Positions 13,970-41,778 of a stretch of DNA of 46,870 nucleotides are shown here, piece after piece. Source of the DNA: a virus; the IMG/VR virus record IMGVR_UViG_3300010370_000061, positions 1 to 46,870 of that record. One strand, given 5' to 3'. The position numbers and the translations under genes were made by a program. How positions within the stretch are numbered: the first letter of the stretch is position 1; each line of letters opens with the position of its first letter. The notes beneath the pieces are model-generated. The model saw only the letters and a list, made by a program, of their open reading frames with translations, was not told the origin of the DNA and searched no databases.

Positions 13970-15154
13970 TTACTCAAGGTATTGGTCTAGTGCTGTCAGG
14001 TCAGAATCGAGTTCAGGAAACGCGAATTGACGCTGATGGAACTGGTGATAGTTGCCATTTGCGATGATTTCAAAGTAGTCACCGCGCTGATGGTGCATCA
14101 TCCCGTCATAACAACCAAACGGTCTTTCGTAGTGGTGCGGGTTAGGGCCGAGGGGGTTTCCATCGTCGTCGTGAAGCAGATGAGGGGCGAAAGGATTTTT
14201 TTTTACGCTGTCCCACCAAGTAATCATCTGGTAGAGAATCGGATTGAGCATCTTGTTCTGGAAGTCATCCAAGTCCTGCTTGGTAATTTCAACCTTCCAT
14301 CGCATGAAATACCATTCTGGTCGAGACTGGATGTCACCACGAACACGATCAGCAAACTGACTGGCTGACTCACTGACACGAGGTCGTAAGCCTGTGCGAC
14401 GAATCACGTTGTACAAGACACCATCAGGCATACGACCGTACTTCTTCCAGACGTTGAGCATGTAGAACCCGGTCTGAAGGTCTTTGTTCAGACCACCCTT
14501 GATTCCGTCAACGTCGATGTCACCTTTGGTCTTGTTCTCCATCACCCAGAGATTTGGTGACTTGTGATTGAGACGGAACACACCGTCAATCTTACCTCGG
14601 CAACGAACTTCTCTGGAAGAAAGAAGAACCGGTACTTTGTGGGTATTGTCGAATTGGTCTTCCTTGGCAACCCAGTCGAACTTGCCTTCAAAGTAGTCGG
14701 CGCCGCCATGAGACATCGACGGTACACGTTGCCAGTATTTTGTGTATTCATCGAATGTAACGAACGATACTGCAACCAGGCGCTGCATATCCGCGATGGT
14801 ATCAGCATCAGCCACATTGGCTAACCGCTTATCGGCGTACTTCATCCCGATGCGAATCATCTCACGTTCACTGAAGTTGTGTACCTGCGCCTCTGCGTAG
14901 AGATGAAACAGGTTGCCGAACTCAAGTGGCACAGAGACATTGTTAGATGACCAACCTTCGACTTGGCTCAACCGAAATCTCTCACGGCAATTGAGAAACT
15001 TGGACATCGAGGAGTAAGTGACCCCATCGCGTTCCATGTCCCAGAGAGGGTCAGTGTTGCGCTTTTTGGTTAGCTTTGTCTTGCGCAGACTCTTTGTGGA
15101 TTCTTTGAACCTCCGCAATGAGTTTGTAGTCTTCTTCGTTTGTTTCTTCGCCAC
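13970..15154 (-). CDS. PD-(D/E)XK nuclease, Cas4/RecB type
   Basis: A 394-residue protein. Motifs: SSMSKFLNCRERFRLSQ near the start of the fold, GNLFHLYAE (His-containing motif I), RGKIDGVFRLN, VMENKTKGDI (D...ExK catalytic core) and LQTGFYMLNV (QxxxY). Such phage exonucleases resect ends for the annealase. A GTG start at 15154 follows a strong AAAGGAG. An internal ATG at 15037 would avoid a 104-base overlap with the upstream gene but has a poor ribosome-binding site; the extra N-terminus is Lys/Arg-rich and may be disordered. No four-Cys Fe-S cluster of classic Cas4 is evident. Confidence 0.8.
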   Translation of the reverse strand: MAKKQTKKTTNSLRRFKESTKSLRKTKLTKKRNTDPLWDMERDGVTYSSMSKFLNCRERFRLSQVEGWSSNNVSVPLEFGNLFHLYAEAQVHNFSEREMIRIGMKYADKRLANVADADTIADMQRLVAVSFVTFDEYTKYWQRVPSMSHGGADYFEGKFDWVAKEDQFDNTHKVPVLLSSREVRCRGKIDGVFRLNHKSPNLWVMENKTKGDIDVDGIKGGLNKDLQTGFYMLNVWKKYGRMPDGVLYNVIRRTGLRPRVSESASQFADRVRGDIQSRPEWYFMRWKVEITKQDLDDFQNKMLNPILYQMITWWDSVKKNPFAPHLLHDDDGNPLGPNPHHYERPFGCYDGMMHHQRGDYFEIIANGNYHQFHQRQFAFPELDSDLTALDQYLE

Positions 15155-15335
15155 AGTCAACTCCTTTAATGATGACAGCCTGTAAATCAATCTCGCCTAA
15201 ATGTTTTAGAAGCTCGACAATGTTTGGGACGTAATAATCAGCCATTCCAGCAGTACCTTGGTCAGTCAAGTACACAACACGGTAACAGCGATTACTTCGG
15301 CTCAAGAATCTTTGGTCTGGATTTTCCATTGCCAT
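15051..15335 (-). CDS. Hypothetical protein in recombination operon
   Basis: A 94-residue protein with a plausible alpha/beta core (YRVVYLTDQGTAG, NIVELLKHLGEIDLQAVIIKG) followed by an acidic helix and a Lys/Gln tail. The start ATG follows GGAGAAGC; a second ATG lies two codons later. It overlaps the uracil-glycosylase gene by 44 bases and the nuclease gene by up to 104. No family is recognised. Confidence 0.45.
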   Translation of the reverse strand: MAMENPDQRFLSRSNRCYRVVYLTDQGTAGMADYYVPNIVELLKHLGEIDLQAVIIKGVDCGEETNEEDYKLIAEVQRIHKESAQDKANQKAQH

Positions 15336-18724: not shown

Positions 18725-18914
18725 AGCAACAGTTTGAGCAGAGCATAATCCGTTGATTTTCTTCGTAGGGAATCACGGTAGCTTCAACAAACTTCTCACA
18801 ATTGAAAACTGTAACGGCAGGCTGGAAACCACAACATCCAGCCTGCCTTCTTTTTGGCTCTCCACGAAAATCGCATGGAGCGCGTTCAAGAACAGTCAGT
18901 TCAATCATGTTCAT
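18663..18914 (-). CDS. Cys-rich small protein associated with glycosyltransferases
   Basis: An 83-residue protein. The start is the ATG overlapping the glycosyltransferase stop as ATGA, with no separate Shine-Dalgarno, so it depends on coupling. Cysteines lie in APCDFRGEPKRRQAGCCG, TVFNCEKF and IMLCSNCCFKRR, a C..RGE..R..CC....C....CxxCC layout that I recall for small zinc-binding-like proteins next to glycosyltransferases in planctomycetes. It converges with and overlaps the plus-strand gene by 62 bases, and a plus-strand terminator hairpin lies inside it. Function unknown. Confidence 0.5.
   Translation of the reverse strand: MNMIELTVLERAPCDFRGEPKRRQAGCCGFQPAVTVFNCEKFVEATVIPYEENQRIMLCSNCCFKRRVDQQAPLPEQPDIQQT
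18816..18855 (+). terminator. Rho-independent terminator of the helicase unit
   Basis: A perfect 11-bp stem GGCAGGCTGGA/TCCAGCCTGCC (18816-18826 with 18837-18847) has a 10-nt loop, then TTCTTTTT on the plus strand. It ends transcription of the helicase unit and lies within the coding sequence of the convergent Cys-rich gene. Confidence 0.9.
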
Positions 18915-19639
18915 AGGTTGGACGCTTTCAGAAACTCAATTGCCAGCTTGACGTAATTCTGTTGCCATCGAGGTTCAAGAACTACATCACCCGCGACGAT
19001 TGGTTTATCTCCAATTCTATTCCATTCATTCTTATTAAGAGATAAATGGTTGTGACTGATATTCCAACGATAAATGTAAAACATCATCCTTGGATTTATT
19101 ACTTCGCCATTCAATGGATAGCCAAGTCTAACAAGTGTTCTATTGAAAACTTGATCTTCATCTCCCATTGCATGTAAGTGCATCGGATAGCCGTTGCCAA
19201 ACTTACCAAGAACTTTCCTCGACCAGATACTCATGTTATGAGAGTTGCCGGGAAACTGAGTCATCTTGACAATTCTGTTCACGTTCCAGAAGTAATGATT
19301 CTCACATCGCCATTCATCCTTGTCAGCCATCCTCATCGCTGAGAATGACAATCGCCAAGGCATTGAGATGTCATCGTCATCCCATCGACAGAAAGCATCA
19401 CCTTCAGCGTGCGCGATCATGAATCGAAGTTTGTGAGTCAGCGATTCAAATCTGTCTGGCACGTTTAGAACTTTTACGCTCGGATGACTGAAGTGTAAGA
19501 ACTGACCCGGTGTGTCATTGCAGATGATAAGTTCTTTGTCTTCGTAGTTCTGAATCAGGAATGAATTAACAGCCTCATTTACCAGATGGATTTGTTCTGG
19601 ATAACGATTGTATGTCGGGAGTAGGCATGTAATTTTCAT
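18911..19639 (-). CDS. Glycosyltransferase family 2-like protein
   Basis: A 242-residue GT-A fold protein. It opens with ITCLLPTYNR, then SFLIQNYEDKELIICNDTPG, and the DXD-type metal site CRWDDDDISMPWRL. Later residues (NSHNMSIWSRKVLGKFG, GDEDQVFNRTL) match the acceptor part of GT2 enzymes. It transfers a sugar from a nucleotide-sugar donor; the acceptor is unknown. It overlaps the upstream fused glycosyltransferase gene by four bases (ATGA) and the Cys-rich gene downstream, so it belongs to one coupled operon headed by the mucin-like virion protein. Confidence 0.85.
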   Translation of the reverse strand: MKITCLLPTYNRYPEQIHLVNEAVNSFLIQNYEDKELIICNDTPGQFLHFSHPSVKVLNVPDRFESLTHKLRFMIAHAEGDAFCRWDDDDISMPWRLSFSAMRMADKDEWRCENHYFWNVNRIVKMTQFPGNSHNMSIWSRKVLGKFGNGYPMHLHAMGDEDQVFNRTLVRLGYPLNGEVINPRMMFYIYRWNISHNHLSLNKNEWNRIGDKPIVAGDVVLEPRWQQNYVKLAIEFLKASNL

Positions 19640-21636
19640 TGCTTCTGACTTTCCTCTGCTCTACGAATTGCTTCATCGACAAGAGAACCAAACAGGTCAG
19701 AGATTTTAATCTTTCCTGCAAATGAGCAGGTTGCTGACCTGATACCGGCAAACAAAAGTTCAGTCCATTTGTATTTGGTGGAATTGTCCTTCAAGCCCTG
19801 AACAATTCTTGATCTCTCTTGACGGCAACCATCTACGCCGAGGAAGTCCATTTCAGCGGCAAGACGATTACAAGAACAGTTCTCTGCTGGCTTGATGCCA
19901 AGTTCAGCGTTCATCGCCTTTAACTCTGTACCCGGCCCTTTGCCAATCTTCCAAGCCATTACATTTTGCTTTGGATGGTCTTCTTCTCGGCAACCAAGAA
20001 TTGTCAAACCATATTCATTGGATGTGTAGAAGATTGGTTTCCATTGAGGATTGTCATCACAGAACGCGCGGAGAACAAAATTCAACCCTTGGCTACCAGT
20101 TGAATCAACATCACCGTAGACAAACGTATCGTGAATTACGATGAATCGTTTGATTCGATTGTGATAATTCGTCAGGTGTTGCTGAAGGGTTGATGACTTT
20201 CCATCAGTATCAATAAATAGAGTGTCAAATTCATCTGGCACATTGTGATACGGTTCAGCATGATTCTGTACACGATTTAGTGTAAGTGTTACCGGCTTGT
20301 TGTAGGTAGTTCGTTCCAAGACGCTATTTAACGAATTGGTAACATCGTCCAGTTCTGATTGGTATGAAACCAGAAGTGATGGGCCACCAGCCAAGAAAGC
20401 AATTGTTGATTCACGACGATGCGTGAACTCGACAACACTATTGCTACGTTCAGCAACCATCTTTAGTGTTGGGAAGTGTTTATCCAAGTCGCGAGGAACA
20501 TTTGAATAGTAGTTGTAGAGGTCATGCACTACACAAGTGTTGAGATCGGGCATGGTAACAATTCTTTGTTCCGATTGCTTTTTCTCAAGCATCTCTTTTG
20601 GTGACGCTGTGTTTCTTGCTTTATAACCTACAGGGTCATCAACAATCTTTTGCCATTCTGTTTCTGGAAGTAGTTTGTTGGAAACAAAATGGTTGTAGAT
20701 TGAGTCAAGTGGAAGCCCAACTTCATTGAAAGCAAGAACATAGTTTCTGACCTTGTTACGACGATCAACTGAATAGTTGATGTCTTCAGGGCCATTGAAC
20801 TTATGATTCCATTTAAGAAATGGAAGACAGATACATCGCCTGCCAGCATTTCGGTATTTGGTGTGAATATAACCTTCTTCACCACCAAACCCTCTCATGT
20901 GTGGGTTGAACCCCAGCCATGACTCAGTTCGAGCCAGAAACAAACCAAGACCCATGGCTGGGATCTCAAACTCATAGCCACGATCAATTGCTGTTTGATA
21001 CCCAAGTTGTTCAAGAATTGATTGGTGGCCGTAGTACAAAACCTTCTTACCAAGGTTGTACTCAGTTATCTCTGGAGAAAGTTTGATGAACTTGCAACGA
21101 GCGTCTTCAATTGGGTGCTGAATGACTGAGAAGTATTCACCGTTCTCATGATCCCACCATGCAGTTCCCCATTTGCCCCACATCTCAGAATCCCAGATGA
21201 GATCAAAATGTGTTGATGCAGTAACAAGATCATCCATCATGATTGGGCCACTCATCAAATCATCGCGGTGAACCTCGCCTGTGTTACCTTGCAACTGGCG
21301 AACCAACTCTTGTAATGCGCCTGGTACAAGCAGAATGTGCGAATCAATGCACATCGTCCACTCTGTCTCTGATTTGTTAAACACCATTTGCCGGGGTTGT
21401 GTTGTCCCAAACAATTCTGGAGGACAAACAAAATATCGACATCGGATGTCACCAGAATGATTGGCTAAGAATGTTTGTGTCTTCTTGCCGTCAACAGTAT
21501 CTGGTGCGTTGTCAACAACGAGAATTTCTACCGGCAAATTGTATTTCACAATCTCCATCTTCAATGCTTGAACCGTAGCCCACAGCATTTTGAAGTCATT
21601 GTGAACCGCCATTCCAACAGTGAGGATGTTTTTCAT
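19636..21636 (-). CDS. Glycosyltransferase fused to a SAM-methyltransferase-like domain and Cys-rich tail
   Basis: A 666-residue protein in three parts. Residues 1 to about 330 are a GT-A domain (LTVGMAVHNDF, EILVVDNAPD, metal site CIDSHILLVPG with Asp-Ser-His, GFNPHMRGFGGEEGYI). Residues about 370-560 resemble a class I methyltransferase/cephalosporin-hydroxylase-like fold (VVHDLYNYYSNVPRDL, VVEFTHRRESTIAFLAGGPSLLVSYQ, FDTLFIDTDGKSST, RFIVIHDTFVYGD). The end contains AENCSCNRLAAEMDFLGVDGC, a CxC...C pattern typical of phage and planctomycete glycosylation proteins. Seven bases separate it from the mucin-like gene. It could modify that protein or host polysaccharide. Confidence 0.75.
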   Translation of the reverse strand: MKNILTVGMAVHNDFKMLWATVQALKMEIVKYNLPVEILVVDNAPDTVDGKKTQTFLANHSGDIRCRYFVCPPELFGTTQPRQMVFNKSETEWTMCIDSHILLVPGALQELVRQLQGNTGEVHRDDLMSGPIMMDDLVTASTHFDLIWDSEMWGKWGTAWWDHENGEYFSVIQHPIEDARCKFIKLSPEITEYNLGKKVLYYGHQSILEQLGYQTAIDRGYEFEIPAMGLGLFLARTESWLGFNPHMRGFGGEEGYIHTKYRNAGRRCICLPFLKWNHKFNGPEDINYSVDRRNKVRNYVLAFNEVGLPLDSIYNHFVSNKLLPETEWQKIVDDPVGYKARNTASPKEMLEKKQSEQRIVTMPDLNTCVVHDLYNYYSNVPRDLDKHFPTLKMVAERSNSVVEFTHRRESTIAFLAGGPSLLVSYQSELDDVTNSLNSVLERTTYNKPVTLTLNRVQNHAEPYHNVPDEFDTLFIDTDGKSSTLQQHLTNYHNRIKRFIVIHDTFVYGDVDSTGSQGLNFVLRAFCDDNPQWKPIFYTSNEYGLTILGCREEDHPKQNVMAWKIGKGPGTELKAMNAELGIKPAENCSCNRLAAEMDFLGVDGCRQERSRIVQGLKDNSTKYKWTELLFAGIRSATCSFAGKIKISDLFGSLVDEAIRRAEESQKQ

Positions 21637-21642
21637 CGGGCA

Positions 21643-24339
21643 TTATCCGGGGACAAGGGTTGTAGTTGTCGTTGTCGATGATGTTGTGGTGGTAGTTGTT
21701 GTAGTCGTAGTAGTGGTGGTTGTGGTCGTCGTTGTAGTAGTTGTGGTTGTGGTAGTTGTAGTAGTTGGAGAAGCACATGGGACTGTTGTTGGGTCATCAC
21801 AGTAAGTTCCAACAACATTGTCTGGACAACCACATTCAAGTAATGCGCCGCCACCACAATTCGATGAAATTAACACATAGGCATTGTTGACGCAACTGTA
21901 AACACAGCTACCTGTACATTCACCATAGCAGGCGTCACAAACTGTTCCAGCACCAAGCCAGTTGCCGACATTTGCATTGCACTCTGCTTCGGTTGTGATT
22001 GTGCAACTATCTTGTGGGTAGTCACAGCAAGCACCAGTTGGTGTGGCAGTTGTAGTCGTAGTTGTTGAAGAAGTGGTTGTGGTTGTTGTCGTTGATACCC
22101 TGTTACAACCAACCTTAATTGAATCACCAGCGCCTGTTGGGCTCCGGTAAGCAGGCCCGCAATAACAATCACCGTTGCACTTGTCTACCGGCAGTTCATC
22201 CCAGAATGTTCCTGTTGATGATCTTCGGATGCAGTAAGAACATTCAACTGATGGTGTTGTAGTAGTGGTGTAACACTCATCACAATTTCTACAGCCACGA
22301 TCACCTTCGCAGTCAGTGTAATAAAGTTTACAAGGATCTGGGTTTGTTATTGAAGGTGGTGTTAGACAACCACAAGTTCTTGGATCATCAAAATCACAAG
22401 TTAATGACTGGCATGTATTACAAATGTTAAACCAACATAAATCGTCATCTGCTGGTGGTTGCAAATCTAAACCTGAACATGGTGCGTACACCCATGTACA
22501 AACACCATTACAACAAATTGATGGATTTATACATTCGCCTTGACAACTAGAATGATATGTGTCACCACAATCAGGGTTTTGTGGCAAGTCAATCGGGTTT
22601 ATATCACTGCAATTGCAAGCGTTACAATCTTGCGTTCCAGAATACCCAACACAACACAAATCATAATCTGCTCCGCAATAATCTGGTGTTCTGTTATCTA
22701 CACCAACACCGCATTGCCAATTAGTTAAATACCATCTAATTATTGTTTCACCAGTACAATTTGTTGATATGTCTTGGTAAGCAATAAAATCACAACCCGG
22801 CCTGCTCGCACAGTTAGAATAAAATTTAGTTGTCGTTGTGTTGCAATTGCATGTGGTTGTAGAGCAGTATGGTGGGTCGTTGTCATCCACGTTGTCAGTG
22901 CAATATGTGATTGTCACATCACCATCTGCATCACCGCAGAAATCTGGATACTTACATTCACACGGAACAGTTGTAGTTGTTGTTGTTGAGCTATGCGTTG
23001 TATAGCAATCTTGGAAGTCAGGGTCTGGTGTTGTGCTTGTTGTTGTGCTGGATGTACTGGTAACAACATCTGCGCAATTATCATACGAGATTGACCAAGC
23101 CTTTGTTGGTGCATCCCACTCCCAAGTACAATAGCCAGTGCAATCAGCAGTAACTGGTGGTGGTACAGATGTTGATGATGTAGTACTGGATGTTGTAACT
23201 TCAGTATCCATAAAGATTTCGATCTCGCGATCAAACTCTGGAAACTGATAGTTCATCATGTCAAGTGATTTGACTTGAGTGAACATCCCGGACTGACCAT
23301 TGTAGATTCCGTGGAAGAACTCAATGTAATGGCAAGAAGCATCCGGCTTGAACGGGATGATGCCGAAGTAAGTTGCATCTTTTCTATTCAGCGGTGTAAA
23401 CGAATCGTAGTACAACGTGCTGAGGATACAGGCGAGAATTGTAAGTTCTTCAAAGTATGTCGATGCGCGTGCATGGTCTGGATCGTAAATGTTATAAACA
23501 TTCAAATCCTTCTTCATACCATCTTTGAATGTTTCTGTACCACCGTATGTATTTGGGCATACAACCGGGTCATTCCAGAATGTTGAATTGAATTGCCGGT
23601 ACTTCACCTGCAATTCTTCTGGGAGATAGGGAGCAAAGATGGTGCTATCAAATTTCTTGCTGACTAGCCTGCCAACATTGTCATCAAACAAATCCAAGTT
23701 TGTATTGTCGATATAAGAATTTCGTTTGATGCTGAATGTTGAACCAACACCATGATCTTTATAAACCTGATGACTGGCAAGCTGAAGAACATCATTCAGC
23801 ATGTTCCAATCAGAGTTGGTTGTTTGTGTGGCAACATCCCGCAGCATGATGGCAGGAAACTTGGCATTGGTCTTATCAACACCAGCCCAAGCTGAATTGA
23901 TGTTTGTGTTGTTCCAGTAAGTCTGTAATGCGGCTGACCAACTGGTTGCCCTTCCTGCTTGGCTGAATTTCTCATGCGGTGGGAACGGATCAAAATTCAA
24001 TCTCGTTTCATGGTGAAAAGCCACATGCCGCTGGTCTGCAATCTTGACCAAGAAAAGCTGATTCGTGCTATTGACCGGGTTAGAAGCATTAACCTCGGTG
24101 ATCATCAGATTGTTGATGGTAACAGTTTCGTTACCATCAGAGATTTTTAGCTGCAAGTCATCGCGGTTGATGAGGGCTGGTAAATCATCCTTGAGAAGCA
24201 GGACATGCCCGTAACCAGACATCCTGCCACCAACCAGACAGAAGCCAAACCGCACCCCATTTTTCTGGAAGAAAGAAAGGATTTCGTCGGTTGGATAGAC
24301 ACAAGCAACCCCGCCGAGGGATGTGTAGGCAGCGCCCAT
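21643..24339 (-). CDS. Mucin-like virion protein: structured N-terminus, Cys-rich modules, poly-threonine linkers
   Basis: An 898-residue protein starting at the ATG after AAGGATC. Residues 1 to about 410 look like a conventional virion or tail protein (GVRFGFCLVGGRMSGYGHVLLL, FHHETRLNFDPFP, YLPEELQVKYRQFNSTFW). The other half alternates Thr/Ser-rich linkers (TTSSTTSSTS, STTTSTT, STTTTTT) with short Cys-rich modules (ADCTGYCTWEW, PCECKYPDFCGD, TGACCDYPQDSC, ECTGSCVYSC). The C-terminus has 28 consecutive Thr, SS, six Thr and LVPG. Such architecture is that of mucin-like, O-glycosylated adhesins. Two glycosyltransferases follow immediately. A fibre or receptor-binding surface protein is likely; glycosylation is inferred. 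Confidence 0.6.
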   Translation of the reverse strand: MGAAYTSLGGVACVYPTDEILSFFQKNGVRFGFCLVGGRMSGYGHVLLLKDDLPALINRDDLQLKISDGNETVTINNLMITEVNASNPVNSTNQLFLVKIADQRHVAFHHETRLNFDPFPPHEKFSQAGRATSWSAALQTYWNNTNINSAWAGVDKTNAKFPAIMLRDVATQTTNSDWNMLNDVLQLASHQVYKDHGVGSTFSIKRNSYIDNTNLDLFDDNVGRLVSKKFDSTIFAPYLPEELQVKYRQFNSTFWNDPVVCPNTYGGTETFKDGMKKDLNVYNIYDPDHARASTYFEELTILACILSTLYYDSFTPLNRKDATYFGIIPFKPDASCHYIEFFHGIYNGQSGMFTQVKSLDMMNYQFPEFDREIEIFMDTEVTTSSTTSSTSVPPPVTADCTGYCTWEWDAPTKAWSISYDNCADVVTSTSSTTTSTTPDPDFQDCYTTHSSTTTTTTVPCECKYPDFCGDADGDVTITYCTDNVDDNDPPYCSTTTCNCNTTTTKFYSNCASRPGCDFIAYQDISTNCTGETIIRWYLTNWQCGVGVDNRTPDYCGADYDLCCVGYSGTQDCNACNCSDINPIDLPQNPDCGDTYHSSCQGECINPSICCNGVCTWVYAPCSGLDLQPPADDDLCWFNICNTCQSLTCDFDDPRTCGCLTPPSITNPDPCKLYYTDCEGDRGCRNCDECYTTTTTPSVECSYCIRRSSTGTFWDELPVDKCNGDCYCGPAYRSPTGAGDSIKVGCNRVSTTTTTTTSSTTTTTTATPTGACCDYPQDSCTITTEAECNANVGNWLGAGTVCDACYGECTGSCVYSCVNNAYVLISSNCGGGALLECGCPDNVVGTYCDDPTTVPCASPTTTTTTTTTTTTTTTTTTTTTTTTTTTTSSTTTTTTLVPG
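21658..21765 (-). repeat. Poly-threonine codon tract (36 codons)
   Basis: The tract consists of 36 codons encoding six Thr, two Ser and 28 Thr in genome order. All four ACN codons are mixed irregularly, so the DNA is a degenerate, not pure, trinucleotide repeat. This points to selection on the protein sequence rather than recent slippage. Confidence 0.9.
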
Positions 24340-24402
24340 GAGATGATCCTTGTACAAACCAGTAATTGGTTACATGGTACAGGGATACTTGATAATCATC
24401 TA

Positions 24403-24765: not shown

Positions 24766-26043
24766 TTAAGCCACCAGACCAAGCTCAGTTTCACCTTCTG
24801 GTGGCATTTCCTCCCCTTCCGTGGGTTGTTCTGGAGGTTGACCGGGCTGGGGAGGCTGACCCGGCATGACTGGGGCTTGTTCGGTTGGGAATAGCTCACC
24901 TTCGGTTCCGGGCGTTCCGGGGGCTGAATTGAGGGGGAACGGCATCGCGTCGAAGGTGTCGTAGGGGAGTAGTCCTAGCCGGGCGTTAATTTGCACCAGA
25001 GGCTTGATAATCTGGTCTACAACGTCATTAAGAAGATTCAGCAGTAGTTCGTACAGGACACTGTAAAACGCATCCTCGGGGATACTACGACCGGAGGATG
25101 ACCCGAATCCTTGTGAACCGGATGACTCGATGACTTCTGGAGGGATGCCGAGGGCTTCTAGGATTTCCACACGAAGGGACTGACCGTATTCAAACAGACC
25201 TGATGGAATTGTATTTCCTCGGGCTGCTTCGTAGTCCCAGCGTTTGTTACCTCGCTGATCAGTGTCAGAGGGGAGAGTCATGACAGCCCCAGCCCGTTTC
25301 TTTTCAATCATCTCTTGCGCGATGTCTTGGTATGAACGGATTCGACCATCCGGGAGTTGAACGGTTCCTTGTGGGTGTCGCATGATGCCACCCTCAAATG
25401 CGTTCTTGTAGAACCACAGACGGCGTACATCGCGGTATCCACCTTCACTCCAGATTTCATTCCATGGGACATGCGCTGCATACAGACGGGATAGACCGTA
25501 GTGCTTGTTGTATTCCTTCCAGTGAACGTGATGGAAGGCTTTAGGGCCACCAAGGTAAACAGCTTTACCGGGGGCCATGTTGATGGTCTGGTAATTGGAT
25601 ACCAAGATGCCAACACGTTGACCTTTGTTGGTGACTACTTTGACTGACGGTGGTTCAAAGTCATTGAGCTTGCAGTAGACAACACGACCTGTCTTTTCAT
25701 CTTGTTCGTATTCCACTTCGCAACCACTGTACCCCCATTCGATTGCTTTGAGAGCTTGGGTGACTCCTTGCCGCCAGAATCGTTTGATTTGATCTTGGAC
25801 GAACTCTTGCACTTCAGGGGTATCTGATTCAACTTTGAATCGAGCCTTTGCCATCAAGTGACCTTTGATGATCCAGAGTCCAAACCGGACACGAGGGTCA
25901 ATTAGCATCTCCCTGATGGTGTAAGTGTTGAATAGCGGACGGTTGCGGGTGTACCCCCATTGAGCCCAATAAGTTCCGGGAACGTAGTCAGTGACTTGGG
26001 TGTTTAAGAGGTCATTGATGTTGACCAGCATTTCGCGTGGCAT
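24766..26043 (-). CDS. Portal protein, DUF935/Mu gp29-like
   Basis: A 425-residue protein. Portal hallmarks: a helical N-terminus with RVRFGLWIIKGHLMAKARFKV, AIEWGYSGCEVEYEQDE, then HWKEYNKHYGLSRLYAAHVPW, RLWFYKNAFEGGIMRHP and EILEALGIPPEVIES, a long stem/crown helix (YSVLYELLLNLLNDVVDQIIKPL), and a disordered Pro/Glu C-terminus (about 380-425). Twelve copies form the vertex ring through which the terminase packages DNA. It is encoded last in the tail cluster, far from the terminase gene. The start ATG follows GAGGAACG and lies inside the frameshifted gene end. Confidence 0.85.
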   Translation of the reverse strand: MPREMLVNINDLLNTQVTDYVPGTYWAQWGYTRNRPLFNTYTIREMLIDPRVRFGLWIIKGHLMAKARFKVESDTPEVQEFVQDQIKRFWRQGVTQALKAIEWGYSGCEVEYEQDEKTGRVVYCKLNDFEPPSVKVVTNKGQRVGILVSNYQTINMAPGKAVYLGGPKAFHHVHWKEYNKHYGLSRLYAAHVPWNEIWSEGGYRDVRRLWFYKNAFEGGIMRHPQGTVQLPDGRIRSYQDIAQEMIEKKRAGAVMTLPSDTDQRGNKRWDYEAARGNTIPSGLFEYGQSLRVEILEALGIPPEVIESSGSQGFGSSSGRSIPEDAFYSVLYELLLNLLNDVVDQIIKPLVQINARLGLLPYDTFDAMPFPLNSAPGTPGTEGELFPTEQAPVMPGQPPQPGQPPEQPTEGEEMPPEGETELGLVA

Positions 26044-26613
26044 TTTTTCGTTCCTCGTTGATGAACTTGGCTTTCATCAGTTCTGCTTGGTAATCGTCCC
26101 CGGTTGCCCTGAGAACGAGGTTGTAAATTCCATCTGCCGTCATGTGTGAAGAAGCCGATCTGACCCGCGCTTCTTTGTAAGCGTTGATCTTATCGGCTTC
26201 CAATCGAAGGATGTGCATAGCGTCATCAGTTAAGAGTCTGTCAGGGATGGATTCAACTCCAAACTGACAGGCGAACTCAACCAATGGCTCTAACTTTTTT
26301 TTTGCTCGACAAACAGTTCCGAGATTACACATGCAATCCGGTAAGCTGCTGGCTCAGAGACAAATGTTCCAAATCTTTCGCTCAAGTTCTTGGCGTAGTA
26401 CGGAACATAGTCTTCATCTTTCCGAACTGAATAGGCTTCGTGCTGTGAGATTAACATCATGCGATGTAGATCACAGACAGTTGATTCAATCTTTCCTTTG
26501 GTTTCACCATTGAAATGCAGATTGAATGAAACCTTTCGGTCATCGGACATGATGTCAAATGACTGATTTTCAGTTTGAGATTGCTCTTGTTTCTTTGCGG
26601 GTTTCTTAGCCAT
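26012..26613 (-). CDS. Predicted -1 frameshift fusion, tail-assembly-chaperone-like
   Basis: If ribosomes slip -1 on the A_AAA_AAA heptamer at 26302-26296, the 107-residue frame continues into the second frame after residue 106. This gives a 200-residue protein whose added part runs KLEPLVEFACQFGVESIPDRLL to the end at 26012. The second frame has no good ribosome-binding site of its own (its only upstream ATG, 26332, lacks a Shine-Dalgarno). A short protein plus a longer frameshifted version is the scheme of lambda G/GT tail chaperones. The sequence match to that family is not visible to me; the analogy is from gene architecture. A homopolymer sequencing error is the main alternative. Confidence 0.55.
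26290..26613 (-). CDS. Zero-frame product of the frameshift pair
   Basis: A 107-residue protein with a Lys/Gln-rich N-terminus (MAKKPAKKQEQSQTENQ). A beta strand pair (RKVSFNLHFNGETKGK) and helices follow (STVCDLHRMMLISQHEAY, EPAAYRIACVISELFVEQ). It ends with KKS just after the slippery run. It lies between the 652-residue baseplate-like gene and the portal gene. Alone it could be the short chaperone form. No family was recognised by eye. Confidence 0.6.
   Translation of the reverse strand: MAKKPAKKQEQSQTENQSFDIMSDDRKVSFNLHFNGETKGKIESTVCDLHRMMLISQHEAYSVRKDEDYVPYYAKNLSERFGTFVSEPAAYRIACVISELFVEQKKS
26296..26302 (-). promoter_or_regulatory. A_AAA_AAA slippery heptamer, -1 frameshift site
   Basis: The heptamer lies within a run of nine As on the minus strand. 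It is in phase with the zero frame (CAA AAA AAA AGT TAG) four bases before the stop. A -1 slip gives AAG TTA GAG, the downstream frame. A perfect 7-bp hairpin CTGTCAG/CTGACAG (26264-26270 with 26238-26244) lies about 25 bases downstream, somewhat far for a classic stimulator. Confidence 0.6.
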
Positions 26614-26631
26614 TGTTTCTTCCTAACAGAG

Positions 26632-28590
26632 TTACTCTTTGTGTTTTTTATCACCAGATTCTTTTTTTGCCCGTGACAAGTCGCCTTCTGGTTTTCCAAG
26701 AACTTTATATCTTCGTTCCCAAGTGGTAGCAACCATTGGGCAATCACCGGCAGATGAAATGACATGATGACTGATGATGTCTGCCTTGGCTATTGGTTTG
26801 ACTTTTTTTCCGCCAATTTCTGCCCATATAGGCGGGTCTGTTGGCCCTCCAAGTCTAATTGCATAACCACGTTCGACAATTTCAAACTCATCTCTTTTGT
26901 AGTCTTGAGTAAAATAAGATTCTTCCGGTGAATCTCGAAAATACTTTAACATTGTGAACTTATTATCAGTAGTTGGATCAGCATTTAATTCTGGTCGAGA
27001 ATATGTGTCATCTACGTTGTATCGTTGGTATGTTTTTTCACCAACATCGCCAACTACATAATACTTTCTTTGATAGTCAACCCAAGATGAACTTTCTGGC
27101 GGGCATTTAGCGCCAAACAAACTAAATACAAAGTCAGCAGGAAAGCCTCTTGTTGTTTCTAAATTTACATCGTAGTGCAAATTTATTTCGGATTGATTGC
27201 ACAAAGTTGTTTCGTAATAAGTGCCTCCGTGTTTACCCGGAACAAGAGGGTACGCACCATTGATTGAGTTGCTGGACAATCGCATGTCTGTTGTCCAGTC
27301 AAACCAGTTTGTTGACTGCAAAGGTTTTAGAAGTTGAGTTTTGTCAAAGAGGTCATCTTGAGCAAGATCAATGTTCATCATCCATGTGACTTTGAACTTG
27401 TATTCATGCGAGAATAGTTCTTCTTCAAGTTCAATCTCAAGGATCAATGGAACTTTTACACGAGTTATGTCTCCAAACGGAAACTCACGTTCAGTTTCGT
27501 ATTGAAGACGTTCATTTAGAATTTGTGTAAATATGTACCATGCTTTGATTGGGTTTACGTTTGGCCGCAACGTAATTGTTGCTGACATTGAGTTAAGCCA
27601 TTTGAAATAACCAACAGTTGCGGCTGGGTTTTTTGATTCACCAAATAGTGATGACCTCAGGTTGTGTGAACATCTAATTGATGTGACACCATTTGGAAAC
27701 GCATTTGGTGATTCAATTTCTGTGTAAAGTATGCTAAAGTTGCATACTCGGTGATCAGGTGAAAAGTTAAGCTCATGCTCAACTTTATAACCTTGCATAT
27801 TTACGCCAATCAGCTTTTGAATAATTTCTTTGTGCTGTTCTTCAATACGTTGTGTATTGCTGTAGTTGGCGATCGCGTCTTTGCCAGACATCAATGCCGA
27901 TTGACTAGATTGAACTCTTGGTAGAGATACTTCTAAGTAACCATTTCGTTGGATTACTTTATAACCGTTTGAGTTTGTTTTGATATTTGTTGTTACGTTA
28001 AAATCAACAATACCAAGTGTTTCTCCAAGACCTCTTTGACAATACTTTGTTCTGACAAGAATTTGATAGACAATTCTTGCTGCCCTATTACCACCAATTG
28101 GTTCAAACGAAAGCATCTTCGGCATTGGGCCAAAGATTATGTCTTGCCTTCTTTTACTATCTTCTGTGCTGCTGTCAAAAATTAAATCTTCACCAGCGCC
28201 TTTAAGTGAGTAGACAAATCTTCCACCCGGTTGCATCAGATGTCTTCGTATGACGCGAATTGCTTGATCTGCTGTGTAGTTATTTTGAAGCGATGTGTTC
28301 ATTGGTGCATATAATGTTTCTTTTGCGTACCCTCCTCCAGTAGTGGCTGAATTAGATGTATCTGGGTTTATATTTAACGCGTTTCCACCAGTATCATTTT
28401 GTGTAATGATTGCTTCGATGGTAAACAAGTATTCTTCGTACTTAATACCTGTGCCAGCATGATTTGGTACTGCGCTGATTTCAAGTTTGGTTTTTACCAT
28501 TTCATTGAACACATAGCCGTTGTATTCAATGTAACCAACTGGTGTGATTGCTGCTTTTATTTGACTTCGTGTATATGCTGCACCAGCCAT
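26632..28590 (-). CDS. Large tail-tip or baseplate-like structural protein
   Basis: A 652-residue protein without signal peptide or strong family match. It is beta-rich with aromatic strands (VGYIEYNGYVFNEMVKTKLE, YEEYLFTIEAIIT, GRFVYSLKGAG) and a motif series with internal similarity between residues about 1-190 and 270-430 (strand, AIRVIRRHL helix; strand, AWYIFTQILNERL helix), followed by a basic tail. Immediately following the tape-measure gene, it is in the usual place of distal tail or tail-hub genes. The assignment is by position. Confidence 0.5.
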   Translation of the reverse strand: MAGAAYTRSQIKAAITPVGYIEYNGYVFNEMVKTKLEISAVPNHAGTGIKYEEYLFTIEAIITQNDTGGNALNINPDTSNSATTGGGYAKETLYAPMNTSLQNNYTADQAIRVIRRHLMQPGGRFVYSLKGAGEDLIFDSSTEDSKRRQDIIFGPMPKMLSFEPIGGNRAARIVYQILVRTKYCQRGLGETLGIVDFNVTTNIKTNSNGYKVIQRNGYLEVSLPRVQSSQSALMSGKDAIANYSNTQRIEEQHKEIIQKLIGVNMQGYKVEHELNFSPDHRVCNFSILYTEIESPNAFPNGVTSIRCSHNLRSSLFGESKNPAATVGYFKWLNSMSATITLRPNVNPIKAWYIFTQILNERLQYETEREFPFGDITRVKVPLILEIELEEELFSHEYKFKVTWMMNIDLAQDDLFDKTQLLKPLQSTNWFDWTTDMRLSSNSINGAYPLVPGKHGGTYYETTLCNQSEINLHYDVNLETTRGFPADFVFSLFGAKCPPESSSWVDYQRKYYVVGDVGEKTYQRYNVDDTYSRPELNADPTTDNKFTMLKYFRDSPEESYFTQDYKRDEFEIVERGYAIRLGGPTDPPIWAEIGGKKVKPIAKADIISHHVISSAGDCPMVATTWERRYKVLGKPEGDLSRAKKESGDKKHKE

Positions 28591-28601: not shown

Positions 28602-30206
28602 TTATAAATTAAACGAGAAGATTGGCTTCTTGTCGTTTGGATCTGAGTTGTCATTTCCAATTGATGCTGGTTGCATATTCAAAAATCTTGCTAAATTTGT
28701 AGCAATTGTATTTTCGCCAGTTGTGATTTTGTCCTTATTGTTTCTCAAAAATTCTTTTAAGTCTGGCATGACCAGAACACCAGTAGCAAAAAAGTTCATA
28801 ATGTTTTTAATTTCATCTTGTGTGAAATTAAAGTTTCCACTGAGCAGTTTTCCAATGATGTCAGCTATTGAACTGAGTTCATCAACGGCAACAGTTAAAC
28901 CATTGTTAATTGATGTTAGAAGAGGCGCAAATGCCATTGTTAATGAATCACCAAATTTAGTCATTGCTATATCAAGTGATGTTTGAGATTGCTCAAATGA
29001 GGCGAGTCTTTCTCCAAACTTTCCTGCTCTCTCGATATTGAACCGCATCATTCTCATTTGAGTTGTGATGCCAGATGCAATTAAAGCACCAGACCAATTT
29101 CTAATCGAATCAATTGCATTATTGAATCTATTTGTTAGTAATCGTGATGCAAGAATAAGACCGCCAAACACACCAGCAGTAATTCCAGCGGCGACACCAA
29201 TTGAAAGTAAATTTCCTGATATAAGCCTCATGGCGCCTGCCATTAAGCCGCCACCTCCACCACCACCTGCGCCGCCTGCTGCACCAGCGGGTGAACCACC
29301 AACAGGAGGTAAACCACCAATACCACCAATTCCTCCAGCAGCACCACCCGGCTGAACGGGAACAGCCATTTTGATATTGGCTGGTTGCAACGCCGGTACA
29401 TTACTTCTAATTCCTAGTGGTTTGTATTCACCAGAAATCATTTGAGCCATAGACTTTAATCTATCTCGTTCAGTTGGCTTAAATCCTTTTGGTTTATAGC
29501 CCCACCACCAAGGCATATCTTCTTCTGGAGGGGAAACAGATGTGATTGTTTCTTTCGCCATCCCGGCGGCAGCAGTTGTAGCCGGTGATGTTGTTATGAC
29601 TTGTGACGCCATGCTTTTTGCTTGTGCGCCACGAAAGAAAGAACCTGTCTGACCAAATAAGGTTTTTAGCCCATCAGACAAAGATTGAAGGATTCCACCA
29701 ACTCGCTGTTGAACTCCTTCACCTTCACCCGGAACACGGGATACATCACGCTGTGATGTGATACCGGCAGTATTGAGCAAGCCATAGATGCTGCTCATCC
29801 GATATTGGAATGTGGAATTTGGATTTATCGCACCGAGAACATGCCGAAGCATCATTTCCCGATGTCGATCTTGTTTATTGATGTCGGCTTCTCGTGCGCG
29901 TTGCTGTTGTCTTATTACAACATCAAGTTGCCGTTTAGCTTTCATTTCCTGAACAGTCAGGCGAGTTTCCTCAATCTCCTTTTTCTTGACAGACTTCTCT
30001 TCATCAAAGGTCATCTTTTGATCTTTGAGAAGTTGTCTACGACCTTTTAATTCTTGGTTCTCTTCAAATTCTTTTGCCCGCGCAGCAGCCTTCAATCTGG
30101 CAAGAGCTTTATTGAACTCTCGTACAGATGCAAAATCATCCGGGGATAGAGCAGAAGCGCTTCCATCCCCAGAGTCGATGATTTCAACTTCCAGTTTTTC
30201 TGACAT
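28602..30206 (-). CDS. Tape measure protein
   Basis: A 534-residue protein. The N-terminal third is coiled coil (REFNKALARLKAAARAKEFEENQ, EEKSVKKKEIEETRLTVQEM). A Gly/Ala/Pro-rich stretch (about 275-315) follows, then a hydrophobic membrane-like segment (LISGNLLSIGVAAGITAGVF) and long helices to the end. This is the composition of tape-measure proteins, which set tail length and help DNA entry. At about 0.15 nm per residue (general rule) the tail would be roughly 80 nm. It follows the tail-tube gene with no room for the usual chaperone pair between them. Confidence 0.75.
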   Translation of the reverse strand: MSEKLEVEIIDSGDGSASALSPDDFASVREFNKALARLKAAARAKEFEENQELKGRRQLLKDQKMTFDEEKSVKKKEIEETRLTVQEMKAKRQLDVVIRQQQRAREADINKQDRHREMMLRHVLGAINPNSTFQYRMSSIYGLLNTAGITSQRDVSRVPGEGEGVQQRVGGILQSLSDGLKTLFGQTGSFFRGAQAKSMASQVITTSPATTAAAGMAKETITSVSPPEEDMPWWWGYKPKGFKPTERDRLKSMAQMISGEYKPLGIRSNVPALQPANIKMAVPVQPGGAAGGIGGIGGLPPVGGSPAGAAGGAGGGGGGGLMAGAMRLISGNLLSIGVAAGITAGVFGGLILASRLLTNRFNNAIDSIRNWSGALIASGITTQMRMMRFNIERAGKFGERLASFEQSQTSLDIAMTKFGDSLTMAFAPLLTSINNGLTVAVDELSSIADIIGKLLSGNFNFTQDEIKNIMNFFATGVLVMPDLKEFLRNNKDKITTGENTIATNLARFLNMQPASIGNDNSDPNDKKPIFSFNL

Positions 30207-30209
30207 GAA

Positions 30210-30836
30210 TTAGGCTGATACAGTGAAGAATCGGTAAGCAGCAGAACCGGTTGAATCAACAAAGAAGATCATAAATTCAACTGGAACAACGCGAGGCTTG
30301 TTGTTGAGGTTGATCTTGGATACTGAGTCTGGAGTCAGAATAGCGCGATGGAAGGTGATGGTGTTCATCGCAACATCAGCAGGGCCGGTGGTTGACCATG
30401 ACGGTGTTCCAATGTTGTTATTCCAACCGTGATTGAAACCTTCGCCTTGAACGCTGCCAGCATTGAAATGGCAACCAGCCTTTACCAATACAAGTGGTTT
30501 GGCTCGGGTGTTACCTTGAGCGTCAACTGCACGAACTGCTGATTGACCAATACAAAGCATCTCACCAAAGGTATCAACACCTGTGCTAAAGGCTGGGGCG
30601 CCCCATAGTGCTGACATCAACCCAGGCGCATCCCATTCCTTGATAATGCCGCGAACACGAATCTGGGCTCCACGACCAATCATGTCTACTTCATTGTCAC
30701 CGGATTCTTCAACAGAAACCATCATGCCTTTGTGGATGATGTCGATTTCCCAACCGTCTTCTGTTGCGCCAAGATACAGTCCGTTGTAATAGGCGTTGTA
30801 ATGACCTGACATTACATTTACTACAGGTGTTGCCAT
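30210..30836 (-). CDS. Major tail tube protein
   Basis: A 208-residue protein. The opening YNAYYNGLYLGATEDGWEI, then the segments SVEESGDNEVDMIGRGAQ and RVRGIIKEWDAPGLMSALWG, match the strand layout of phage tail-tube subunits, which stack as hexameric rings. The C-terminal part (VPVEFMIFFVDSTGSAAYRFF) supplies further strands. The position between connector genes and tape measure supports it. Confidence 0.7.
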   Translation of the reverse strand: MATPVVNVMSGHYNAYYNGLYLGATEDGWEIDIIHKGMMVSVEESGDNEVDMIGRGAQIRVRGIIKEWDAPGLMSALWGAPAFSTGVDTFGEMLCIGQSAVRAVDAQGNTRAKPLVLVKAGCHFNAGSVQGEGFNHGWNNNIGTPSWSTTGPADVAMNTITFHRAILTPDSVSKINLNNKPRVVPVEFMIFFVDSTGSAAYRFFTVSA

Positions 30837-38971: not shown

Positions 38972-40240
38972 ATGGCTATTAACTACGCAAATCTTTTTGG
39001 TGACTTAGGTGATATTTATAACACCATAGAAGATATAGAAACATTTGGCGCAACGATGCTTTCTAATAAAGCAACAGTTATCGCGCAACTTACTGCATCA
39101 GGTGAAACTGATCTCATCACACAAGCCAATTCAACCTTTGATACCGCGATCTCTTCTATCAACACCATGCTTTCAAACATGGTCAACTTATCGCGTCGAA
39201 GACTGGTCAGCAAAGCCAGCATTTTGGAGCAACTGCCATCACTTACATCAAACGACTACAACAACGTGATGTACGAACTAATTGATGACATGGTTGCAAA
39301 CTCACAGACGATAAAAAAATCTACAGTTACTATTGGCGCAATTACAAAGACAGCGACAAATGCTAACTCTGGTAGCCTAATTGTGACGAAAAAACTTCCC
39401 GGTAACACTTCTCCCGGTGAAGGAATGTATGCGCATCCTGATATGACAGGTCAAGATTCTCAACTTACTTTGACTGATAGTTTTGTTGTAACTGTTTCCA
39501 ATGACAATCAGGCAAGTGGTGGTGGTGGTGAAACATTTCAGATCACCAGTTTGCCTGCTGCTGCTGGGCCATTTACTGTGCAAGGTGGTGGTAACAGGGG
39601 TGTTAGCACCTTTTCACCAACCAAACAGCGAAGCATTATCAGCAACTTCTTCTCATCTTTTAGTGGAACTGTTCCATCGGGATGGACTGCGCTGGATGCA
39701 AATGACTATGCAGTAGAAACATCTGTCGTTATGTTCGCCGGTACAAATTGTTTGAAGATTATTTCAGCCGGTACTCTCAGCTACGACTTCAGCACAGCAG
39801 TAAGACCGGGACAAATGTTGTGCTTATCCTTCTATCTCAGAAAAGTTGTTGGTGAGACTGGTAGTATAAACGTCAAGGTCTACATCAATGGTTCAGCAGT
39901 TGTAAACCAGACAATTGTTACTGGCTCAGTATCTAGTTCAGCGTGGACTCTATTCAACTATGATGTCGCTGTCACCAAGGAGACTGGAACCTGTTATATC
40001 GAGATCATCTCAACATCAATTACAAACGGTTACTACATCGACAACGGCGCCTTGAGTCCTTATCACCATCATGCTGGGCTTGGGTTCGCAGTTACAAGAG
40101 GAACCGAAGTCTTTGTCAAAGGCGACGATTTCAGGTTCACAACAACAAACGACAACGCTGGTAAGCAGCAACGATTGTTATCCAGAATTGTTGGTTTCCA
40201 GCCACCAACAGCCAATACTGGTACTATCGCAGAACCCTAG
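38972..40240 (+). CDS. Virion protein with carbohydrate-binding-like domain, inverted
   Basis: A 422-residue protein. The N-terminal about 130 residues are helical (GDLGDIYNTIEDIETFGATML, FDTAISSINTMLSNMVNLSRR). A middle part includes LTLTDSFVVTVSNDN. Residues about 230-385 form a CBM/galactose-binding-like jelly-roll (WTALDANDYAVET, NCLKIISAGTLSYDF, LCLSFYLRKVVG, CYIEIISTSI..GYYIDNGALSP). The family is unnamed but typical of phage structural proteins. It is the only plus-strand gene within the structural block and converges on the terminase gene, with stop codons sharing CTAG. Confidence 0.6.
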   Translation: MAINYANLFGDLGDIYNTIEDIETFGATMLSNKATVIAQLTASGETDLITQANSTFDTAISSINTMLSNMVNLSRRRLVSKASILEQLPSLTSNDYNNVMYELIDDMVANSQTIKKSTVTIGAITKTATNANSGSLIVTKKLPGNTSPGEGMYAHPDMTGQDSQLTLTDSFVVTVSNDNQASGGGGETFQITSLPAAAGPFTVQGGGNRGVSTFSPTKQRSIISNFFSSFSGTVPSGWTALDANDYAVETSVVMFAGTNCLKIISAGTLSYDFSTAVRPGQMLCLSFYLRKVVGETGSINVKVYINGSAVVNQTIVTGSVSSSAWTLFNYDVAVTKETGTCYIEIISTSITNGYYIDNGALSPYHHHAGLGFAVTRGTEVFVKGDDFRFTTTNDNAGKQQRLLSRIVGFQPPTANTGTIAEP

Positions 40241-41778
40241 TAGAGGGGGTGTGATGGTTTATATGTACCGGGCAAGTCATGGTAATCAACAGATACCGTG
40301 TTGCTATAGCTCTCAGGCTTAGTAAGTACATTATGCCATTTCACATAGTTGCAAGCTCTGGATAGCGTATCCACGATGTCATCCGTTTCATTCGGATAAC
40401 CTTGCCATGTAAATATCTCATTCTCGGCTGTCTTGCCCCAGTCCGAGTATTGAGGAAACCAGATTCTGCCATTTTTCATTTGGATGATCGCTACAGTTGC
40501 GTCACGTAACTTATCTGTATCCTTGAATACACCTTCTACAACCATACCCAAACGATTGGCATATTGGACTACACCTTTACCAATGCCATTTTCTTCAATG
40601 ATGACTTTACTTGGCCTCCAGCGGTAATACTGCTCCCACATCCTATCAATCACTTCAGGGATCTCTTCCCTGAACCGTTCCATGTGTAGCCAGAGCAGGT
40701 TGTAACATTTTGTAATTGCCCATGTACTAATTACAGTCCACGATGGGTTGTACCTTGGGTTGAAGTCAGTATCACCCGGCCCTTCTGTAAGACTGGATGC
40801 GCTATCAATCGTCTGGAACACTTCAGCAATATCACGTTGCCAGTTTAAGTGTGTGCCAGTTCTGTTTGGGCCTAAGAATAGCAAGTCACCAGATTCACTA
40901 AAGAACCTTTGATACTTCTGCTGGAATCTGGCATTAGCGACAAACCCCCAGTCACCATCTTGTAACTGCGCACGGTGTTCTTCTGTCAGATTGGAAAGTG
41001 ACTCGCTGTACTCTTCCTGATTCAAGAATGGGTTGTCGTTCAGAAATGATGGTATGAATGGTCTGGTTTTATCTTTACCAACCCATCTAACAACCTCTCT
41101 GTCATTGATAGTTTGTTTTTCAGGCTGAATCTTGAATCTGGCTTGAACCCATCTATGACCTACACCGCCGGGGTTAGTGGTGGCTCTCATTCTGATTGGG
41201 AGCGATGCCATCATCCGGCAAACATTACAATCAGGGTCATAATCCTGTTTGTGATCAGGACAATTACACTTACGCAAACGGGAAAACAAATAAGTGTAGT
41301 CAGCTTCACTATGCTGAGTCACTTCATCAAACCCAACCATTTGCAATTCAATACCCTGATAACGCGAATAAGCATTGGTATCGCCAATGTAACCAAATGT
41401 CAGAGATGAATCCTGTAGTCGTTTACCTTTTGAATCAAAGGTCTTGAAATAGAACGCATGATCAGACGCAGAGTAACGAACTTCTTTGGTTCGTAAATGT
41501 GGTGTCAGCCATTCTGTAGCGCGAGAGAGAAGCGCATTGGGCAATTTAAGATCAGCCAGCGTCTTTCTCATCAGCATACATGCGTAACCCGGAACATCGG
41601 AATACTGCAATGCTGCCATCAAGAGAGCATCTGATTTACCACCACCAGCCGCACCACCAAACAATGCCTCCTTCTGGGGGACAAGGAGAAACGCGGTTTG
41701 TTTGATGGTGGGCTTATGTGGAATGAACTTAGTCAACCGTGGTTTAAGGAACCCGGCGATCTTGTTCAAATCTGTCAT
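40237..41778 (-). CDS. terL: Terminase large subunit
   Basis: A 513-residue protein. ATPase: Walker A FGGAAGGGKSD (41-50), arginine-type MLMRKTLADL, Walker B MVGFDEVTQ, coupling ATTNPGG. An unusual Cys cluster CNCPDHKQDYDPDCNVC (about 170-187) suggests a bound zinc inserted in the ATPase. Nuclease: QTIDSASS, IIEENGIGKG and TDDIVDTLSRA provide the RNase H-like acidic residues. It packages DNA into the prohead. Its start overlaps the small upstream gene as ATGA. Confidence 0.9.
   Translation of the reverse strand: MTDLNKIAGFLKPRLTKFIPHKPTIKQTAFLLVPQKEALFGGAAGGGKSDALLMAALQYSDVPGYACMLMRKTLADLKLPNALLSRATEWLTPHLRTKEVRYSASDHAFYFKTFDSKGKRLQDSSLTFGYIGDTNAYSRYQGIELQMVGFDEVTQHSEADYTYLFSRLRKCNCPDHKQDYDPDCNVCRMMASLPIRMRATTNPGGVGHRWVQARFKIQPEKQTINDREVVRWVGKDKTRPFIPSFLNDNPFLNQEEYSESLSNLTEEHRAQLQDGDWGFVANARFQQKYQRFFSESGDLLFLGPNRTGTHLNWQRDIAEVFQTIDSASSLTEGPGDTDFNPRYNPSWTVISTWAITKCYNLLWLHMERFREEIPEVIDRMWEQYYRWRPSKVIIEENGIGKGVVQYANRLGMVVEGVFKDTDKLRDATVAIIQMKNGRIWFPQYSDWGKTAENEIFTWQGYPNETDDIVDTLSRACNYVKWHNVLTKPESYSNTVSVDYHDLPGTYKPSHPLY

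Follow-up and report, generated by a model that had tools for sequence, protein, structure and literature searches.

The DNA analyzed here, referred to as the window, is a stretch of 46,870 nucleotides of viral origin. Its morphogenesis genes form an operon on the minus strand, in the order terminase, a scaffold/protease-like gene, capsid genes, connectors, tail tube, a tape-measure-like gene, a gene for a 652-aa protein, two small overlapping frames that we call P1 and P2, and the portal. The features around P1 and P2 are as follows; G002 and L020 are two related contigs.

24766 to 26043, minus strand: portal protein of the Mu/DUF935 type (PF06074, PHROG 113)
26012 to 26296, minus strand: P2, the -1-frame extension, 94 codons past the slip site; every relative keeps this frame
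26224 to 26286, minus strand: RNA hairpin 3' of the slip site, with weaker outer pairs reaching 26219-26289
26295 to 26303, minus strand: A9 run holding the slippery heptamer A_AAA_AAA (26302-26296); kept in G002 and L020
26290 to 26613, minus strand: P1, the zero-frame ORF, with an ATG start and a short, G-like product of 107 aa; homologous in 11 other loci
26621 to 26624, minus strand: ribosome-binding site (RBS) of P1, AGGA, read from the sequence
26632 to 28590, minus strand: 652-aa protein, presumed from its position to be a tail tip or distal tail protein; conserved in the clade
28602 to 30206, minus strand: tape-measure-like protein of 534 aa, from its position and its coiled-coil, Gly-rich and hydrophobic pattern
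30210 to 30836, minus strand: tail tube-like protein, from its position and sequence character

The portal protein scores 34 bits against PF06074 (Portal_Mu; cut-off 23.9) and also matches PHROG 113, and the connector and neck genes match PHROGs 195 and 26. The tube, tape-measure and tip assignments were made from position and sequence character only, and family searches with the 652-aa protein gave no match. The tape-measure-like gene is the fastest-evolving of the genes compared. A gap of just three bases separates it from the tail tube gene (30206 versus 30210), as a preliminary description of this DNA had stated, leaving room for no chaperone pair. The portal gene is preceded by its own RBS (GAGGA, about 26052-26056).

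The portal closes the tail module and lies some 14 kb from the large terminase (24766-26043 versus 40237-41778). In the phages that carry the nearest known portals the order is terminase then portal; the clade of the window instead keeps a tail-then-portal order. After the portal comes a gene for a 904-aa protein with Cys-rich stretches and long poly-Thr and Ser-Thr linkers (21643-24357), and genes that share a similar N-terminal part follow the portals of relatives as well, including, by eye, that of L037. Two neighboring GT2-type glycosyltransferase-like genes (18911-21636), 3' of the portal and fibre-like genes, are kept in G002 and partly in L025.

The 3' end of P1 reads GAG CAA AAA AAA AGT TAG. 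The preliminary description placed A_AAA_AAA in the zero frame, four bases before the stop and leading by -1 into the next frame. Re-reading the sequence bore out the frame and the shift, and also the closeness to the stop, except that a single codon (AGT, three bases) separates the heptamer from TAG. Past the heptamer the -1 frame is open for 94 codons, to a stop at 26012. The predicted product of a -1 slip is a 200-aa P1-P2 fusion (...VEQKK-KLEPLVEF...), whose junction-spanning peptide would be VEQKKKLEPLVEF. P2 had also been described as lacking its own RBS, and this holds: the sole P2-frame ATG upstream of the slip, at 26332, lies within P1 and no RBS precedes it, and in the nearest relative no codon in this stretch could serve as a start. 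About 24 in-frame heptamers occur in the genes of the window, and that of P1 alone adjoins the end of its ORF and opens a long -1 frame. By-eye inspection revealed no upstream Shine-Dalgarno-like stimulator near the slip site. A second A9 run (14196-14204, minus strand) places an in-frame A_AAA_AAA in a 406-aa nuclease-like gene (13970-15190), 76 codons ahead of the stop, where the -1 frame is open for just 18 codons. It is retained in G002 within a nearly identical block of about 50 nt and is possibly a second slip site that yields a truncated product.

Relatives of the locus came from several searches. Early scans of viral contigs with single proteins returned G001 and G002 only, L020 came from a tail-tube profile, and the wider family came from a three-sequence portal profile, which added viral contigs whose portals are 39-48% identical, along with a contig from a Planctomycetaceae metagenome-assembled genome (MAG) at 31%. 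The DNA of the region had no match among phage records, and nothing significant came up when P1-P2, the 652-aa protein and the tail tube were each compared with cultured phages by tblastn. The MAG contig (L037; JADZEF010000231.1, 2153-12366) carries P1/P2 and the portal together with the conserved gene that follows. Its homologue of the tip gene lies on the opposite strand, and P1/P2 is still found with the portal; L037 may be a rearranged provirus or another phage-derived cluster. It hints at the host phylum, and the phage group is apparently planctomycete-associated, the host being deduced from this one MAG relative. A search of 392 genomes of that phylum found, besides the MAG itself, three distant portals only.

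The same two-frame pair lies directly upstream of a Mu-type portal in 11 distinct relatives, and in near-duplicates of them, down to a portal identity of about 30%. In every one of the 12 tabulated loci, window included, the overlap of the two ORFs contains an in-frame X_XXY_YYZ heptamer at the same alignment position, and in all relatives it leads into a homologous -1 extension. The heptamer is A_AAA_AAA in the clade of the window, L027-L032 and L034-L036, G_GGA_AAC in L026, A_AAT_TTT in L033 and T_TTT_TTC in L037. These four types fall on separate deep branches of the portal tree, which does not settle the deep branching order. From measured heptamer rates, the chance of finding a heptamer in each overlap of 11 loci has a product of about 2e-16, a figure overstated by shared ancestry. 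A mechanical scan for heptamers near an ORF end that open a long -1 frame found the P1/P2 site in every locus, and its other matches were scattered and did not recur. Moreover, the fusion proteins align across the junction, and a leave-one-out profile recovers each of them (hhalign E 1e-8 to 1e-43), while the P1 codons past the slip site, from 0 to about 26 in number, are not conserved. What this comparison of sequences shows is a two-frame gene with a conserved slip heptamer and a fixed place before the portal. The slip site proposed from the window alone is thus real, with four versions of the heptamer kept across an uncultured phage group.

Homopolymer runs are error-prone and the window is an IMG/VR virus contig, so a miscounted A9 could in principle have split a single continuous gene. 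The A9 is present, however, in separate assemblies. G001 is the same virus assembled separately (99.99% identity over 34 kb). G002 is 67% identical to the window in P1, 86% in P2 and about 90% in the portal protein, and its A9 is intact even though the synonymous sites of P1 are near saturation (ps 0.76). The portal of L020 is only 57% identical to that of the window, and it too has the A9. Three different stop codons follow the run in these contigs, counting the window-type stop: TAG in G001, TGA in G002 and TAA in L020. The alternative raised at the outset, that an A8 or A10 run would restore one continuous gene, fails on these grounds, and relatives that lack homopolymers are split as well. 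We therefore regard a sequencing or assembly error as a negligible prospect.

P1 and P2 might instead be two ordinary overlapping genes, with P2 translated from a weak start of its own or by reinitiation. The ATG at 26332 could serve in the window, and some relatives have TTG codons after the slip. Yet the ATG is missing from relatives, the P2 frame of G002 opens only a few bases ahead of the A9, and in eight of the 12 tabulated loci, again with the window included, the -1 frame has no ATG, GTG or TTG between the previous stop and the slip. Conservation of P2 begins at the junction, ahead of any ATG, and heptamers recur in every lineage. In the alignment of homologues the two frames are split in all relatives, and in none could a pair of independent starts account for P2. 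This makes separate translation highly improbable. That every relative joins its frames at an in-frame heptamer effectively excludes sequencing error, a single unbroken gene and a separate start for P2.

A better rival is slippage of RNA polymerase on the A9, where A10 transcripts would encode the same fusion protein. Runs of nine A or T suffice for efficient slippage by bacterial RNA polymerase, and dnaX of Thermus uses such a run (PMC5009743). For the window alone this is a fair rival, and it may add to ribosomal slippage where the A9 is present. At the homologous place, however, L026, L033 and L037 have heptamers without long homopolymers, which polymerase slippage cannot account for and which argue for ribosomal -1 frameshifting instead. 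Furthermore, the hairpin of the window lies 3' of the A9 and would not yet have formed while the run was being transcribed. As the sole source of the long form, we consider polymerase slippage very unlikely.

The strong pairs of that hairpin start 9 nt after the heptamer. Its minimum free energy is -27.9, and no shuffle out of 200 was as stable (z -4.3); the hairpin of G002 gave a z of -3.0. Random synonymous recoding of P2 matched the stability in 0.3% of trials (p ~0.003) for the window and G002 each, and the two RNAs have a nearly identical structure despite a one-base change of register in part of the stem. The hairpin of the window ranks in about the top 1% of the genome's 70-nt windows without being its most stable stretch. 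The 70-nt version in G002 is unremarkable in stability, and the support for the hairpin comes from the shuffles and the synonymous recoding. Structure 3' of the slip site is significant for some fold lengths in L020 and L033, and no significant hairpin was seen in L027, L030-L032, L034, L035 and L037. Therefore, only some of the lineages seem to have a 3' stimulator. Some tailed-phage frameshift sites seem to need no stimulator at all (PMC5009743).

Taken together, these comparisons make it very likely, as far as sequence can tell, that P1/P2 is decoded as one gene by programmed -1 ribosomal frameshifting. We infer from them that slippage occurs and with what frequency, and that both proteins accumulate. 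Most ribosomes would end at the P1 stop and release the short protein of about 107 aa, and a minority would slip back one base on A_AAA_AAA and make the long P1-P2 form of about 200 aa, helped in the sub-clade of the window by the downstream hairpin. By analogy with the G/GT chaperones, many short copies and few long ones would cover the tape-measure protein and bring in tail-tube subunits. On balance, a -1 frameshifted gene put to the use of a G/GT chaperone is the account of the whole that we favor.

As to function, the preliminary description proposed a relocated chaperone pair. No frameshift pair of the morphogenesis module other than P1/P2 is shared by all members, and wherever the module of a relative could be read, the slot that separates the tail tube from the tape measure contains no such pair; P1/P2 follows the tip gene in every relative whose tail module is readable. 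The sequence architecture, with short and long forms that would share an N-terminus through a frameshift, is that of the chaperones, and the long forms of 169-205 aa resemble in size E/E' of phage P2 and gp13/14 of HK97. On the other side stand the non-canonical position and a profile match that amounts to a weak motif in P2. P1/P2 had no match among Pfam, PHROG and PDB profiles, and profile comparison of P1 with known G proteins found no similarity. When the P2 profile was compared with eight known T domains, it beat all 200 column shuffles (hhalign P 0.0067), with one unrelated control protein scoring higher; the motif is in register, aligned just after the junction, and individual P2 sequences score near the controls. 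The comparison is no more than suggestive. Weak hits of P1 to Pfam YpoC and phrog_19982 (E ~0.005-0.08) did not recur with other members and were set aside. Since position was tested and the pair lies outside the tube/tape-measure slot, we do not file P1/P2 as a member of the chaperone family; we nevertheless think it probably works like a relocated G/GT tail-assembly chaperone. L027 (4284-4511), L031 (4239-4550) and L032 (4395-4646) have a small gene of 75-103 aa between tube and tape measure that is not frameshifted; it is confined to one sub-clade and absent from the window.

The pair might alternatively be a portal-linked assembly factor, such as a portal chaperone, a portal-scaffold adaptor or a neck factor, whose long form would be made at a low level and whose translation would be coupled to that of the portal. 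P1/P2 immediately precedes the portal in every case. In the window, the last 32 nt of P2 overlap the portal gene, which starts at 26043, and across all members the P2 stop and the portal start either overlap by 1-32 nt or are no more than about 45 nt apart. In L037, the pair stays with the portal despite the tip gene being on the other strand, so that it tracks the portal and not the tail. Between the window and G002, P2 evolves at a portal-like rate (dN 0.08 versus 0.06) and P1 at a rate like that of the tail genes (dN 0.26). However, synonymous divergence from G002 falls sharply at the junction (~26290), with P1 saturated and a dS of about 0.9-1.3 in P2 and the portal, a pattern which suggests that the slip site marks a recombination boundary, and the low dS of P2 and the portal could come from such a boundary instead. 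Coupling alone is also no proof, given that the GT frames of lambda, phage P2 and N15 also run into the start of the low-copy gene that follows them, the tape measure. We know of no portal factor with short and long forms made by frameshifting, which counts against a role at the portal, and we consider such a role rather unlikely. Translational coupling of the portal to P2 is possible, the portal having its own GAGGA. Since the P1 stop lies about 250 nt ahead of the portal start, the ribosomes that reach that start would be those that slip, and the frameshift might even gate the portal, with slipping ribosomes alone traveling on to the overlapping start. This is a doubtful proposition, and to our knowledge such gating has no description in phage morphogenesis. 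If it were true, the efficiency of frameshifting would set both the level of the long form and the supply of portal subunits, linking the assembly of the head vertex to that of the tail.

Tail chaperones are usually found by the gene order tube, chaperone, tape measure. Annotation based on position would miss P1/P2 and name two unrelated hypothetical genes. In addition, the exchange of A_AAA_AAA, G_GGA_AAC, A_AAT_TTT and T_TTT_TTC at one homologous site is a natural series for the evolution of slip sites, and at this locus a link from frameshifting to portal supply could be tested, in a phage group for which the searches brought up no close kin in culture.

Among known systems, P1/P2 can first be set beside dnaX of Thermus thermophilus, where a run of nine A/T gives two products, as at the A9 of the window; there the polymerase slips, and relatives of P1/P2 instead use non-homopolymer ribosomal heptamers. 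The Gordonia phages Orchid and Gmala1 and the Rhodococcus phage Mbo2, distant relatives by their portals, share a DUF935-like portal and a similar order of capsid, connector and tail genes, and they too have a frameshifted gene, annotated as a chaperone. Unlike P1/P2, it occupies the canonical slot that separates tube from tape measure, and their portal lies ahead of the head genes. A further likeness is to the chaperones of lambda (G/GT), HK97 (gp13/gp14) and phage P2 (E/E'). As in those systems, the predicted -1 shift lies near the end of the first ORF, the products would share an N-terminus and are similar in size, and the fast-diverging pair sits in the morphogenesis module with its -1 frame overlapping or abutting the next low-copy structural gene. 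P1/P2 differs from them in lying between the tail-tip gene and the portal and not between tube and tape measure, in the absence of detectable similarity in P1, and in having only a weak motif in P2.
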